A DNA stretch of 64,000 nt from Flavobacteriales bacterium (GTDB lineage Bacteria; Bacteroidota; Bacteroidia; Flavobacteriales_D; Sanyastnellaceae), in NCBI GenBank assembly GCA_947488195.1, contig CANKYR010000001.1:59645-123644 (forward strand), in the 5' to 3' direction. Numbering within the stretch: the first letter of the stretch is position 1; the number at the start of each line of letters is the position of its first letter. The notes below the pieces were generated by a model. It did not search any database. It saw only the letters and a program-made list of their open reading frames with translations, and had not been told where the DNA came from. Position numbers and translations under genes: made by a program. Below, in pieces: positions 8,589-61,105 of the stretch.

Positions 8589-9557
8589 ATGAAAAATATT
8601 GCAGTGGTCTGCGGTGGTTACAGTGGCGAGTCTGTTGTTTCTATGCGTAGCGCGATGATGGTGATGGAGAACATAGACCGTTCGAAGTTCACACCGACAC
8701 AGATTGTGATTGAGCAAGAGCGTTGGTATGCGTTGGTGAATGAAGTGGAAGTTACAGTTGATCGCAACGATTTTTCTGTGGAAGTAGATGGAATGAAAAC
8801 CACGTTCGACGCAGTGTTCATGATTGTTCATGGTACTCCGGGAGAGAACGGATTGTTGCAAGGATATTTCGATACCATAGGCATGAAGTACACCACGGGT
8901 GATGTGTTAAATATGGCATTAACGTTCAACAAGAAAGCAACGACGCGTACGTTGGGTTCTATGGGTTATCGCGTTGCGCGATCCATTGTTGTTCGAAAGG
9001 AAGAAATAATTACAGCCAAAGAAGTGGTTGCAAAAGTGGGATTGCCATGTTTCGTAAAACCGAATTGTGGTGGAAGTTCAATAGGAACATCACGCGTGAA
9101 TAAGTTGGAAGAAGTTATGGACGCTATTTCTCGCGCTAGAAACGAAGATGAGGATATTATTGTTGAAGAATTTATTTCAGGAAGGGAAGTCACGTGTGGG
9201 GTGATCGTCATGAATGGAAAGCCAACGGCCTTGCCTGTTACAGAGATTGTGAGTGAGACTGAATTTTTCGATTTTCAAGCGAAATATGAAGGGAAGAGCA
9301 AGGAGATTACTCCGGCGCCAATTAGTGAGTTTCATTATGCCCGTGTTCAGGAATTAGCTGCTCGTATTTATACCGACTTGAATTGCGGCGGAATGATACG
9401 CGTAGACTTTTTGTTACCCGACGAAGAACCTTCTGTGATTGAAGTGAATACCGTACCTGGCTTCAGTGCGGCCTCTATTATTCCTCAGCAAGCTGCGGTG
9501 ATAGGTATGAGTAAGATGGAGTTGATTTCCGCGGTGCTAGGAACTACGTTGTTGTAA
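8589..9557 (+). CDS. ddl: D-alanine--D-alanine ligase
   Basis: VCGGYSGESVVSMRSA; PCFVKPNCGGSSIGTSRV; IEVNTVPGFSAASIIPQQA. Confidence 0.94.
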   Translation: MKNIAVVCGGYSGESVVSMRSAMMVMENIDRSKFTPTQIVIEQERWYALVNEVEVTVDRNDFSVEVDGMKTTFDAVFMIVHGTPGENGLLQGYFDTIGMKYTTGDVLNMALTFNKKATTRTLGSMGYRVARSIVVRKEEIITAKEVVAKVGLPCFVKPNCGGSSIGTSRVNKLEEVMDAISRARNEDEDIIVEEFISGREVTCGVIVMNGKPTALPVTEIVSETEFFDFQAKYEGKSKEITPAPISEFHYARVQELAARIYTDLNCGGMIRVDFLLPDEEPSVIEVNTVPGFSAASIIPQQAAVIGMSKMELISAVLGTTLL

Positions 9558-9736
9558 CTTCGTTGTTAGAACTTCGTTGTTGGAACTGCGTTGTTATATC
9601 TTCCCCCCTCTTACCTTTTCTTAACCTTTCTTACCTTTTAAAAAGACATTCGCCGAAGGCATTCGTGTTTTCACATTCGTTGCTTCGCAACATTCGTGCT
9701 TGCACATTCGTTGCTAGGCAACATTCGCCCGCAGGG
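9545..9736. repeat. Intergenic palindrome/separator array A1 (GTTRG-type and CATTCG-type)
   Basis: AACTTCGTT units spaced by GTTAG/GTTGG, then CATTCG alternating with CCGAAGG, TGTTTTCA, TTGCTTCGCAA, TGCTTGCA, TTGCTAGGCAA, CCCGCAGGG. Confidence 0.9.
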
Positions 9737-9737
9737 C

Positions 9738-11267
9738 TCAGAAATACTGATCCAACGCCACCACCTTCCTAACCGCTTCATGCAAGTCTGCAATTGGAAT
9801 GCGCTCCTGTTGCATGCTGTCGCGGTGACGAATGGTTACGCAATTGTCTTCCAAGGTTTCGTTGTCTACTGTTACGCAAATAGGAGTTCCAATAGCGTCT
9901 TGTCTTCTGTATCTGCGACCAATGGCGTCTTTGTCGTCGTATTGTAAGTTGAAGTCTAACTTCAACAGATCTACAATTTCTTTTGCTTTTTCAGGAAGCC
10001 CGTCTTTCTTCACCAACGGCAATACCGCCACTTTCACAGGAGCCAAGGCCGCTGGAATGCGAAGCACCGTGCGCTCACTTCCATCTTCCAACTTCTCTTC
10101 CACAAATGAACTCGACAACACAGCCAAGAACATGCGGTCTAATCCGATGGAGGTTTCAATCACATACGGAACAAAACTCTCGTTCGTTTCCGGATCGAAA
10201 TAACGCAATTTCTTCCCACTGAATTCTTCGTGTTTTTTCAAATCGAAATCAGTACGAGAATGTATTCCTTCCAACTCTTTGAATCCCATTGGGAAGTTGA
10301 ACTCAATGTCGCAAGCCGCATTGGCGTAGTGCGCCAGCTTCAAGTGGTCGTGGAACTTGTAATTTCCTTCACCCAATCCTAAAGCGTTGTGCCACTTAAT
10401 ACGCTCGTTCTTCCAGTAGTTGTACCATTCCATCTCTGTACCCGGCTTCACGAAATATTGCATTTCCATTTGCTCGAATTCGCGCATGCGGAAAATGAAC
10501 TGACGTGCAATAATTTCATTGCGAAACGCCTTTCCAATTTGTGCAATTCCGAATGGAAGTTTCATTCTTCCTGTCTTCTGAACGTTCAAGAAATTCACGA
10601 AAATTCCTTGCGCCGTTTCCGGACGCAAATAAATAATTCCAGCATCGCCGCTTACTGCGCCGAGCTCTGTTTTGAACATGAGGTTAAACTGACGAACATC
10701 TGTCCAGTTGCGCGATCCAGTCTCTGGATCAGCAATTTCACAGTCTTCAATCAATTGCTTCAATCCTTCTAAATCGCTTGCTTCCAAGGCCGCTTTCATG
10801 CGTCCTTTTACCGCGTCTATTTTCTCTTGAGCGCGAAGGACATTCGGATTGGTTGCGCGGAATTGTTCTTCATCGAACGCATCTCCGAAACGGTTCTTCG
10901 CTTTCTCTATTTCTTTGGTGATTTTCGCTTCGCTTTTCGCCATGTAATCTTCCAACAAAACATCGGCGCGGTAACGCTTCTTGCTGTCTTTGTTGTCGAT
11001 CAACGGATCGTTGAACGCATCTACGTGTCCGCTTGCTTTCCAAGTGGTCGGATGCATGAAAATAGACGCATCTATTCCCACAATGTTTTGGTGCATGCGG
11101 GTCATGGCGGTCCACCAGTAGTTCTTGATGTTGTTTTTCAATTCAACACCCAACTGACCGTAGTCGTAGGCGGCCGAAAGGCCATCGTAAATTTCAGAGG
11201 AAGGAAATACAAATCCGTATTCCTTTGCGTGCGAGATTACCGCTTTTAATTTGTCTTCTTGTGCCAT
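9738..11267 (-). CDS. glyS: Glycine--tRNA ligase
   Basis: Class II aaRS; MRTHQ-region equivalents IGKAFRNEIIARQFIFRMREFEQMEMQYFVKPG; GLDRMFLAVLSS; start at MAQEDKLKAVISHAKEYGFV (11267). Confidence 0.95.
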   Translation of the reverse strand: MAQEDKLKAVISHAKEYGFVFPSSEIYDGLSAAYDYGQLGVELKNNIKNYWWTAMTRMHQNIVGIDASIFMHPTTWKASGHVDAFNDPLIDNKDSKKRYRADVLLEDYMAKSEAKITKEIEKAKNRFGDAFDEEQFRATNPNVLRAQEKIDAVKGRMKAALEASDLEGLKQLIEDCEIADPETGSRNWTDVRQFNLMFKTELGAVSGDAGIIYLRPETAQGIFVNFLNVQKTGRMKLPFGIAQIGKAFRNEIIARQFIFRMREFEQMEMQYFVKPGTEMEWYNYWKNERIKWHNALGLGEGNYKFHDHLKLAHYANAACDIEFNFPMGFKELEGIHSRTDFDLKKHEEFSGKKLRYFDPETNESFVPYVIETSIGLDRMFLAVLSSSFVEEKLEDGSERTVLRIPAALAPVKVAVLPLVKKDGLPEKAKEIVDLLKLDFNLQYDDKDAIGRRYRRQDAIGTPICVTVDNETLEDNCVTIRHRDSMQQERIPIADLHEAVRKVVALDQYF

Positions 11268-11289
11268 AACGGCTGCAAAGATAGGACTA

Positions 11290-11976
11290 TTAAATTCTTT
11301 CGAGAAGCGCTTCGAAGATTTCTCTTCCGTCGGTGTTTTCCAATTCGAAATCGGCTGCACGCTCAGGGTGAGGCATCATTCCAAATACATTTTTACCTGC
11401 ATTGCAAATACCTGCGATGTTGTTCAATGAACCATTCGGATTGAAGTCTTCACTTACCACACCGTCTGCAGAGCAATAGCGGAACAACACTTGGTCGTTG
11501 TCTTCAATTTGCTTCAACACATCGGCTGGAGCAAAGAAGTTTCCTTCTCCGTGTGCAATTGGAATTTGAAATGCTTTTTCGCGATCCAAACCAGCAGTTA
11601 AAACCGCGCTAGTTGAAGCCGCTTTCAAATGAACATTTTTGCAAATGAATTTTCTAGTAGTGTTGTGCAACAAGGCTCCAGGAAGCAATTTCGCTTCTGT
11701 TAAGATTTGAAATCCGTTGCAAATTCCCATTACATATCCGCCGCGATTTGCGTGTGCCACCACTTCTTCCATAATCGGAGAAAAGCGCGCAATAGCGCCG
11801 CTGCGTAGGTAATCGCCGTAGCTGAATCCACCTGGAACAAATATGAAATCACAACCTTGAAGGTCGCGGTCTTTGTGCCAAAGTTTTACCACTTCTTGTC
11901 CCATGATGTGCGACATGGAATACACCAAATCTTCATCACAATTGCTACCTGGAAAAACGACGACACCAAATTTCAT
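11290..11976 (-). CDS. purQ: Phosphoribosylformylglycinamidine synthase subunit PurQ
   Basis: MKFGVVVFPGSNCDEDLVYSM; VPGGFSYGDYLRSGAIARFSP; GICNGFQIL; MPHPERA. Confidence 0.95.
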   Translation of the reverse strand: MKFGVVVFPGSNCDEDLVYSMSHIMGQEVVKLWHKDRDLQGCDFIFVPGGFSYGDYLRSGAIARFSPIMEEVVAHANRGGYVMGICNGFQILTEAKLLPGALLHNTTRKFICKNVHLKAASTSAVLTAGLDREKAFQIPIAHGEGNFFAPADVLKQIEDNDQVLFRYCSADGVVSEDFNPNGSLNNIAGICNAGKNVFGMMPHPERAADFELENTDGREIFEALLERI

Positions 11977-14914: not shown

Positions 14915-15005
14915 GGACGAGGGCAACTGGCGTTGCGAGGGCGAATTGCTTCGCGAAGGTCTTACAGACGAGGGTTGCAAGCAACGAGGGTCTTCGACGA
15001 TTTAA
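14909..15005. repeat. Palindrome/separator array A3a (CGAGGG-type)
   Basis: TCCTAAGGA-CGAGGG-CAACTGGCGTTG-CGAGGG-CGAATTGCTTCG-CGAAGG-TCTTACAGA-CGAGGG-TTGCAAGCAA-CGAGGG-TCTTCGACGA. Confidence 0.92.
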
Positions 15006-15006
15006 C

Positions 15007-15155
15007 AACGTAGTTCCCACAACGCAGTTCTCACAACGTAGTTCTCACAACGCAGTTCCAACAACGCAGTTCTCACAACGCAGTTCCCACAACGCAGTTC
15101 TAACAACGCAGTTCCAACAACGCAGTTCCAACAACGAAGTTCTAATAACGAAGTT
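15007..15155. repeat. 14-bp tandem repeat A3b, 11 units (AACGYAGTT + CYMAC)
   Basis: Units start at 15007, 15021, ... 15147 with an exact 14-bp period; consensus AACGCAGTTCYMAC. Confidence 0.97.
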
Positions 15156-16080
15156 CCTTCTGAAAAGACCAACAGACAATCCGACTCACTTTATTTCCGA
15201 GTTGCATTGGAAGAATTTTCATCTCTCTGGCATCTACGTATTCGAGTTTGAGTTGAATTTTTTTCAGGGTGCTTTCTTTTGAAACGAGGGTGCTGAACCA
15301 GAGCACTTGATTTGAGTAGGCAGCGCTTTGAAGTATCATTTTTTCAATGAAGGTTTCTTCTCCGCCTTCGCACCAGAGTTCGGTTCCTTGTCCGCCGAAA
15401 TTCAATTGCACTTTGGTGTTGCGCGTGTTTTTCAGGTTTCTGTTTTTGCGAAGATTCCCTTGTTGCGATTCTTGAAGAGATGCGTGGAAAGGCGGATTGC
15501 AAACCGTGAGGTGGAATTTTTCATTGGGAAGAATAATTCCGTGAAAGATGTCGTGCGCATTTTTTTGATGGCGCAGTTCAATTTTATGTTGAAGTGAATC
15601 GTTCTCGTTTACAATTTTTTGTGAAGCGGCAATGGCTTTTTCATCGATGTCGGTTCCAACGAAATTCCAGTTGTAATCGTGCACGCCAACAATGGGGTAG
15701 ATGCAGTTCGCGCCCACACCCACATCGAGCACGCGAATGTTGTTTCCTAATTTTTTATCTTTAAGATATTCTGGGTTGTTCTTGTACAACAGATCGGCTA
15801 CTTGGTGCATGTATTCTGCTCTTCCCGGAATGGGAGGACACAAATAATTTGCCGGAATGTCCCAATGCGCAATGCCGTAGTTGCTTTTCAGCAGCGCTTT
15901 ATTCAGCAGTTTCACCGCTTCCGCATTGAAGAAATCTATGCTCTCATTTCCGTAAGCATTCATTTTCACAAACGCCCCTAACTCTGGAACGGCTTGAATG
16001 AGTTCAAGGAAGTTGTAGTTTTCTTTGTGTTGATTTCTTGGGTGCATTTTTTTGTTCATTTTTTGTACTTCAAAAAACAA
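15142..16080 (-). CDS. rlmF: 23S rRNA (adenine(1618)-N(6))-methyltransferase RlmF
   Basis: MHPRNQHKENYNFLELIQAVPEL, VLDVGVGANCIYPIVGVHDYNWNFVGTDID, TVCNPPFHAS; start may be MNKKMHPRN (16059). Confidence 0.93.
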   Translation of the reverse strand: MFFEVQKMNKKMHPRNQHKENYNFLELIQAVPELGAFVKMNAYGNESIDFFNAEAVKLLNKALLKSNYGIAHWDIPANYLCPPIPGRAEYMHQVADLLYKNNPEYLKDKKLGNNIRVLDVGVGANCIYPIVGVHDYNWNFVGTDIDEKAIAASQKIVNENDSLQHKIELRHQKNAHDIFHGIILPNEKFHLTVCNPPFHASLQESQQGNLRKNRNLKNTRNTKVQLNFGGQGTELWCEGGEETFIEKMILQSAAYSNQVLWFSTLVSKESTLKKIQLKLEYVDAREMKILPMQLGNKVSRIVCWSFQKELRY

Positions 16081-33404: not shown

Positions 33405-33467
33405 TCCGAAGGATTTGATGTGTAAACACGAATGTCGCTGACGAATGCCTTCGGCGAATGTCTTCGA
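33404..33467. repeat. Intergenic palindrome/separator array A4 (CGAATG-type)
   Basis: ATCCGAAGGAT-TTGATG-TGTAAACA-CGAATG-TCGCTGA-CGAATG-CCTTCGG-CGAATG-TCTTCGA. Confidence 0.88.
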
Positions 33468-33468
33468 C

Positions 33469-34763: not shown

Positions 34764-34934
34764 CCTCACTCCTCCGGATCAATCGAAATAAATTTCGATC
34801 AATCTCTTCGAGATCAATCTGACGTTGTCAGAGAATCAAATCGTCGAAGACCCTCGTTGCTTGCAACCCTCGTCCAAAGGACCTTCGCAAAGCTATTTGC
34901 CCTCGCGTAGCAATACGCCCTCGTCCTTCGTACT
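34748..34934. repeat. Intergenic palindrome/separator array A5 (TCAATC-type then CCCTCG-type)
   Basis: GGATCAATC-GAAATAAATTTC-GATCAATC-TCTTCGAGA-TCAATC-TGACGTTGTCA...TCGAAGA-CCCTCG-TTGCTTGCAA-CCCTCG-TCCAAAGGA-CCTTCG-CAAAGCTATTTG-CCCTCG-CGTAGCAATACG-CCCTCG. Confidence 0.9.
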
Positions 34935-56488: not shown

Positions 56489-56662
56489 ACACGAGGGTCT
56501 TCGACGAAGGCAACTAGCGTTGCGAGGGTTTCACGAGGGTCTTTCAGACGAAGGCAACTGTCGTTGCGAGGGCGAAATGCTTCGCGAAGGCAACTTGCGT
56601 TGCGAGGGCAAATGACGTTGCGAGGGTCTGCGACGAGGGTGCTAACGCACGAAGGCCGATGG
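56484..56662. repeat. Intergenic palindrome/separator array A6 (CGAGGG-type), largest mosaic array
   Basis: CGAGGG-TCTTCGA-CGAAGG-CAACTAGCGTTG-CGAGGG-TTTCA-CGAGGG-TCTTTCAGA-CGAAGG-CAACTGTCGTTG-CGAGGG-CGAAATGCTTCG-CGAAGG-CAACTTGCGTTG-CGAGGG-CAAATGACGTTG-CGAGGG-TCTGCGA-CGAGGG-TGCTAACGCA-CGAAGG. Confidence 0.95.
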
Positions 56663-60739: not shown

Positions 60740-60788
60740 CACTATGAAAAAGCAATTTACTTTTTTACAATTTTATTATTCAGTATTG

Positions 60789-60899
60789 CGCCCCATCGGG
60801 GCGACACAAACGCGGAGGCATGGGTGTTAGCCCATGCAAATGGTGATTAAGATTCAGAGTTGTTTTTGCGTGATGACGCCCATGCAAATGGTGATCAAG
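60789..60899. repeat. Double-hairpin element with a 21-bp direct repeat
   Basis: Hairpins CGCCCCATCGGGGCG (60789-60803) and GCATGGGTGTTAGCCCATGC (60818-60837); CCCATGCAAATGGTGATYAAG at 60831-60851 and 60879-60899. Confidence 0.7.
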
Positions 60900-60962
60900 C
60901 AAACGAACCCTCCTCGCGAGTTAACAACGGTTCAACTTTATGCGTATTTATGCGAAAACCGC

Positions 60963-61105
60963 TCCCTCTCGCAGGGCCCTTGGGCATCTGGCGTTGCGAG
61001 GGTCTTTCAGACGAAGGCAAATTCTTTGCGAGGGTTCTGCGAACGTATGATTAATACGCAACGCTAGTTGCCCTCGCGAAGTATTCGCCCTCTTTCGAAG
61101 AAATT
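60963..61105. repeat. Palindrome/separator array A8, inverted about a central palindrome
   Basis: CGTTG-CGAGGG-TCTTTCAGA-CGAAGG-CAAATTCTTTG-CGAGGG-TTCTGCGAA-CGTATGATTAATACG-CAACGCTAGTTG-CCCTCG-CGAAGTATTCG-CCCTC. Confidence 0.9.

Follow-up and report, generated by a model that had tools for sequence, protein, structure and literature searches.

The convergent gap between the ddl and glyS genes of a genome from an uncultured genus of Flavobacteriales (Bacteroidota), within a 64,000-nucleotide stretch of DNA (the window), holds one case of a genus-wide system of hairpin arrays with at least five linker families: CGAATG, CGAGGG, ATTGAT, GTCATC and AACGNAGTT. The arrays can be described as genus-specific, dispersed repeats in which tandem mini-hairpins, with 2-5 bp stems closed by C-G and mostly triloops (often GNA or TNC), are each joined by a family-specific 6-nt linker. 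The reading tentatively preferred here, given slightly less than an even chance, is that they are REP-like non-autonomous DNA cassettes, made and maintained as DNA hairpins and retained at the ends of genes as substitutes for terminators. The hairpins would be formed, copied and kept perfect as DNA, either single-stranded or extruded. What would keep the arrays past stop codons is that they insulate or terminate converging transcription units where ordinary terminators would otherwise do so, a role for which any linker family should do.

REPs and other intergenic palindromic repeats have been known for decades, and there is still no agreement on their function. Unrelated linker families at the same gene ends of close relatives amount to a natural experiment in which sequence and architecture are uncoupled, and the swaps between them make it directly testable whether a bare string of DNA hairpins ends or insulates genes. 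DNA as the folded molecule would be unusual for a gene-end element.

The window belongs to a draft genome (G000; 2.19 Mb in 159 contigs, 85% complete), which is one of a comparison set of nine genomes of the genus, labelled from G000 onward, whose stretches were compared. The closest named relatives of its glyS are Flavobacteriales and Crocinitomicaceae MAGs.

Two facing arrays in the ddl/glyS gap

The block at 9545-9736 (A1) had been described in a first-pass annotation as a near-perfect alternation of CATTCG with palindromes, preceded by a GTTRG-type and a pyrimidine-rich block. The letters and coordinates of the alternation are right. CATTCG starts at 9647, 9660, 9674, 9691, 9705 and 9722, and the intervening blocks are inverted repeats (CCGAAGG, TGTTTTCA, TTGCTTCGCAA, TGCTTGCA, TTGCTAGGCAA and the terminal CCCGCAGGG), with pairing limited to the two outer bases in TGTTTTCA. 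This alternation is far above chance: six CATTCG and five hairpin-spaced pairs are observed in the gap, while the maxima among 5000 dinucleotide shuffles are three and zero.

The same annotation counted three concatenated repeat grammars. This is literally true, since Tandem Repeats Finder recovers all three (a 14-bp period at 9541-9596, a 10-bp period at 9609-9639, and 13-17-bp and 31-bp periods at 9660-9727), each of which is a dispersed repeat of the genus. As anatomy, a different division serves better. Hairpin arrays occupy both gene ends with pyrimidine units between them, and A1 is thus best read as two back-to-back, gene-specific 3′-end arrays (CGAATG for glyS, AACTNCGTT for ddl) that face each other across a pyrimidine spacer module (Table 1). 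The GTTRG-type block is indeed present, with its start inside ddl, in the unit at 9542. On the ddl sense strand the AACGNAGTT array reads AACTNCGTT; because this block begins within the gene and includes the stop codon, it encodes the last Ddl residues (GTTLL) as well as the stop. At the other end, the CATTCG array does come almost to the glyS stop, its first base lying 1 nt past it; in the direction of the gene it is a CGAATG array on the glyS sense strand. Read in this direction, the TGA stop is followed by one base, by CCCTGCGGG, and then by CGAATG-TTGCCTAGCAA-CGAATG-TGCAAGCA-CGAATG-TTGCGAAGCAA-CGAATG-TGAAAACA-CGAATG-CCTTCGG-CGAATG, that is, six hairpins and six linkers. Since C is the first base of the linker and G the last, the linker adds a G-C closing pair to each hairpin, leaving GAAT alone as the unpaired linker.

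Table 1. Coordinates of the arrays, their flanking genes and related transposase genes (window positions unless a stretch label is given)
Feature	Position	Strand	Remarks
ddl, D-alanine--D-alanine ligase	8589..9557	+	NCBIfam NF002527 above cut-off
AACGNAGTT (GNA) array	9542..9596	-	four 14-bp units, hairpins at 9542, 9556, 9570 and 9584
Pyrimidine-rich module	9600..9639	+	four 10-bp units, CTTCCCCCCT / CTTACCTTTT / CTTAACCTTT / CTTACCTTTT; dispersed repeat
CGAATG-linked hairpin array of glyS	9647..9736	-	orthologous arrays in G004 and G006
glyS, glycine--tRNA ligase	9738..11360	-	NCBIfam NF003211 above cut-off; stop codon 1 nt from the array
Sister array, another convergent gap	14918..15157	+	CGAGGG hairpin array, then about ten AACGNAGTT units, reaching into the end of the convergent gene
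CGAATG array filling a convergent gap	33405..33468	+	G004 ortholog is an ATTGAT array
ATTGAT array then CGAGGG array, one convergent gap	34778..34923	-	G005 ortholog is ATTGAT then CGAATG
CGAGGG hairpin array	56492..56655	+	begins 3 nt past a stop codon
Related Y1-transposase (RAYT-like) genes	L140:9453-9794, L142:11314-11655, L144:10559-10900, L146:11722-12066		GCCCC..GGGGYGA palindromes; several beside CGAATG arrays

Two observations concern the flanking genes. In G001, G005 and G006, residues 2-25 of the glyS frame have their match in another reading frame, about 3 kb away, and the match to glyS itself begins near residue 25-27; the GTG start used for glyS may lie too far upstream, or may mark a rearrangement adjoining purQ. 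The otherwise short glyS/ddl gap of G001 (L214) holds, after glyS, a gene that reads by eye like an ORF6N-type DNA-binding protein.

The pyrimidine module lacks G altogether on the ddl strand at 9600-9639. About 100 copies are found in eight of the nine genomes, usually flanked by hairpin arrays and often bordered by AACTNCGTT at one end and by CATTCG at the other. A rut (Rho utilisation) site would be C-rich and G-poor on the transcript strand downstream of a gene; in codirectional gaps the pyrimidine strand is the antisense one in 14 of 19 cases, a strand bias opposite to that of a general rut site. Copies of the 10-bp-periodic module (window 9600-9639; L160-L189) also lie 3-60 nt before some start codons, and the module may therefore have a role other than that of the hairpin arrays.

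Searches of Rfam and of phage and plasmid collections gave no sign that A1 is part of a longer known IS end or of an rRNA- or tRNA-derived repeat, the finding that would have counted against the first reading. A covariance-model scan against Rfam gives no match up to E=1, so A1 is not recognised as a structured RNA of a described family. Phage and plasmid records contain no match to the block, and an origin from either was rejected; viral contigs contain none to the AACGNAGTT array.

Genus restriction and placement at gene ends

A de novo scan for identical hexamers flanking a hairpin returns 164 matches in 53.6 kb of sampled G000 intergenic DNA, against 8.6 expected. The families that emerge from this model-free scan of G000 are CGAGGG, CGAATG, ATTGAT, GTCATC and AACGNA; in G005, ATTGAT and CGAATG are abundant. 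The G005 genome has 89 copies of CGAATG-N7-11-CGAATG and a single copy of the reversed control pattern. Hairpins are 7-13 nt long with stems of 2-5 bp, and their sequences are diverse, with 77 distinct spacers among 164 CGAATG intervals. ATTGAT arrays are often paired head to head, with ATCAAT hairpins followed by ATTGAT hairpins (L127, L133, L141, L152) and a sequence such as CGTTCCGATTAATCC at the centre.

The strict CGAATG unit is present in seven of the nine genomes of the genus. Outside it, no more than 3 of 390 further genomes of the order have a match, each a single one, and one of these three, G388, has a contig with several genus-type arrays. Tandem AACGNAGTT matches number 60 in G000 and zero in 394 other sampled genomes of the class, and 0.98 Mb of glyS neighbourhoods from other Bacteroidota contains no linker-hairpin clusters. 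Judged from these searches, strict array patterns are essentially absent outside the genus. The G388 contig (C48; L219) comes from a genome of another family of the order; its start carries typical genus CGAATG arrays, and its other CGAATG pairs look like chance. The array-bearing contig is probably misbinned, or possibly transferred.

With gaps defined by a home-made gene caller (a simple hexamer model), arrays are found in 43 of 92 convergent gaps (47%), 49 of 288 codirectional gaps (17%) and 14 of 123 divergent gaps (11%). For gaps 60-300 bp long, the corresponding numbers are 27/51, 22/138 and 3/63 (convergent versus divergent, p=3.6e-9). Polarity was analysed after the data had been seen and on array copies that are not statistically independent: in convergent gaps, the reading direction of CGAATG arrays leads away from the nearer stop in 19 of 23 cases (p=0.0026), and the first linker usually lies at -4 to +15 nt from that stop. 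GNA (AACGNAGTT) arrays, which often abut or overlap the stop, have a fixed polarity opposite to that of CGAATG in 16 of 18 (p=0.0013), and the two polarities are not independent where one composite holds both. Codirectional gaps alone give a ratio of 18:9 for CGAATG, which is not significant (p=0.12).

Classical terminators, consisting of a hairpin plus a T tract, are partially excluded by the arrays: they follow 13 of 133 3′ ends with arrays and 73 of 305 without (p=4e-4), and the background of the motif at 5′ ends read antisense in array-free gaps is 3-11%. The arrays themselves do not qualify as canonical intrinsic terminators, which have a GC-rich stem of 5 bp or more with an immediate T tract, because T tracts do not regularly follow the arrays. 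TTTT lies within 14 nt of CGAATG arrays in 8 of 41 cases, compared with a 15% background, and T is enriched 3-6 nt past the cap hairpin of these arrays. A stronger proposal would be that many ordinary terminators of the genus have been replaced by a DNA-structure signal, namely arrays of GNA-loop mini-hairpins at a fixed short spacing right after stops, whose linker and stem sequences are interchangeable between species and in which only architecture and strand polarity are selected. It is rather unlikely in this full form.

Family swapping and the level of pairing

Conservation of the block in sister genomes holds for occupancy and fails for sequence. GlyS is 99% identical in amino-acid sequence between most sister species, and the ddl/glyS gap next to it carries CGAATG in G000, G004 and G006, CGAGGG in G001 and G002, and ATTGAT in G005, where the array fills the gap from stop to stop. 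The C-terminal residues of Ddl vary with the array among sister species (GTTLL, EHCV, ASITV or ASITK). Another swap is found in the window gap at 34764-34932, with ATTGAT plus CGAGGG in G000 and ATTGAT plus CGAATG in G005. Among convergent gap pairs in synteny with the window, an array is present in both species in 12, in one species in 2 and in neither in 8; divergent gaps in the same synteny have none in 18. A wider comparison of orthologs gives 48 pairs with arrays in both and 8 with an array in one only, which overestimates the conservation of occupancy because some stretches were fetched for their arrays. That families are swapped at one and the same gene end suggests conservation of the hairpin architecture, not of its letters.

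These data also bear on whether the arrays serve the host at all. They could be selfish or neutral dispersed repeats whose hairpin DNA copies itself and survives only where insertion does little harm, after stop codons. Their restriction to the genus, multiple copies, cassette swaps and changes in unit number between sister species would all be expected of such repeats, and REP placement is similarly 3′-biased (PMC3733652). Mere tolerance, however, would not be expected to produce fixed polarity and stop-codon abutment, nor does it sit well with occupancy kept in 12 of 14 array-bearing convergent ortholog pairs of the window synteny despite changes of family, or with the lower number of classical terminators where arrays sit. 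A purely selfish or neutral origin is therefore on the doubtful side, though a real possibility.

Within orthologous arrays the stems are held and the loops are free. In 61 aligned units, substitutions affect 18.3% of loop positions and 3.6% of stem and of linker positions. The changed stem pairs comprise six compensatory changes that keep Watson-Crick pairing, one G.T and no broken pair, a pattern of stem conservation that paralogous conversion could mimic. Array stems in general are almost always perfectly Watson-Crick paired.

Replication template switching that keeps making perfect palindromes, multiplied by slippage and under no selection, would also generate compensatory double changes with almost no broken stems, and it can homogenise the arms of inverted repeats (PMC8604942, PMC8794818). 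Yet its hallmark, loop inversion, is not enriched in the CGAATG family (10 observed, 9.7 expected), and constant linkers, GNA/TNC loops, C-G closure and gene-end polarity are left unexplained. A mutational by-product of this kind is very unlikely.

Pairing maintained in RNA should leave more G.T than C.A mismatches on the transcript strand. No such excess is seen over four linker families, with 9 G.T against 18 C.A on the sense strand; leaving out CGAGGG, which has no established polarity, the other three families give 7 against 11. Each of four families is enriched for triloops of the form GNA or the complementary TNC (p about 1e-10), and C-G closes 54 of 58 distinct hairpins in CGAATG, 32 of 34 in ATCAAT, 22 of 24 in GATGAC and 13 of 21 in CGAGGG. 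In tandem AACGNAGTT arrays the loops are GAA (63), GTA (61) and GCA (36). In the CGAATG, ATTGAT and AACGNAGTT families, it is mostly the strand complementary to the transcript that carries GNA. Loops of the d(GNA)/GNNA type closed by C-G form extraordinarily stable DNA mini-hairpins (PMC4686876), and the arrays have such C-G closed GNA triloops on one strand as an enrichment, not in every unit. Together, the missing excess of wobble pairs and the signature of GNA loops favour DNA over RNA as the molecule that would fold.

The first-pass annotation had suggested folding both strands as RNA. A1 is not exceptional when so folded (z of -1.77 on the plus strand and 0.05 on the minus strand), and ViennaRNA folding of single-stranded A1 with either RNA or DNA parameters does not set it apart from shuffles. 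The arrays might still act once transcribed, in the mRNA 3′ end, as terminators or as shields against 3′ exonucleases, and their 3′-end location, polarity, partial exclusion of terminators and the T enrichment past the CGAATG cap hairpin would agree with this. Against such a role stand the G.U-compatible mismatches, which do not exceed C.A on the transcript strand, the lack of a consistent U tract and the unexceptional folding of A1, and it is accordingly judged clearly unlikely.

Mobilising enzymes and comparison with known systems

The preferred reading, that of DNA cassettes maintained as hairpins, raises the matter of what moves them; searches of the genus for RAYT and for RVT_1 identified no mobilising or copying enzyme for the arrays. 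No reverse transcriptase (RVT_1) was found in the genus. Y1_Tnp (RAYT) genes are present in four of the nine genomes, and some lie no more than a few hundred bp from CGAATG arrays, as would be the case if the arrays were REP elements mobilised by a RAYT. No RAYT was found in G000 (85% complete) or G003 (96% complete), though both are rich in arrays. The closely related copies examined are flanked by a palindrome of their own, GCCCC..GGGGYGA, and appear to have inserted next to arrays. Array hairpins have no conserved core sequence. Mobilisation by RAYT is highly improbable. More distant Y1-transposase copies occur in L141 and L143, and the window at 60740-61000, in the RAYT-less G000, holds matching RAYT-flanking repeats (GCCCCATCGGGGCGACA, GGCATGGGTGTTAGCCCATGC), perhaps as a remnant.

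An open-access literature search found no description of intergenic hairpin arrays of this form. Several known systems share features with them. Intrinsic (Rho-independent) terminators also place inverted repeats directly after stop codons, but the stems of the arrays are only 2-5 bp long and no regular T tract follows. TAACTGA-type heptamer repeats of Beggiatoaceae, Cyanobacteria and some Bacteroidetes likewise repeat a constant short word in intergenic arrays; these are direct heptamers located mostly just upstream of start codons (PMC4679880), whereas the arrays described here abut stop codons, are rare in divergent gaps and have hairpins between the words. The promoters of phage N4 provide a DNA-level parallel. 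Their hairpin, with a three-base loop closed by a sheared G.A, is extruded on the template strand by gyrase-driven supercoiling and recognised by the polymerase (PMC4496689). The short stem, C-G closure and GNA three-base loop of the N4 virion RNA polymerase promoter resemble those of the arrays; N4 hairpins are promoters, however, while the genus arrays sit at gene ends and have no known polymerase.

The closest likeness is to REPs and BIMEs. REPs are intergenic, high-copy palindromes with a 3′ bias, found in convergent or unidirectional gaps and sometimes supplying a stop codon (PMC3733652), and the arrays too are short, mostly intergenic palindromes in high copy, 3′ of genes in convergent or codirectional gaps. 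A REP is a GTAG/CGTC-tagged palindrome of 20-40 bp with a family-conserved sequence, in contrast to the hypervariable 7-13 nt hairpins and constant linkers of the arrays, which lack this tag and have CGAATG, CGAGGG, ATTGAT or GTCATC instead. Unlike REPs, the arrays come in several interchangeable linker families, do not require a RAYT and show no G.T wobble excess. With these differences, they are filed as a variety of intergenic palindromic repeats.
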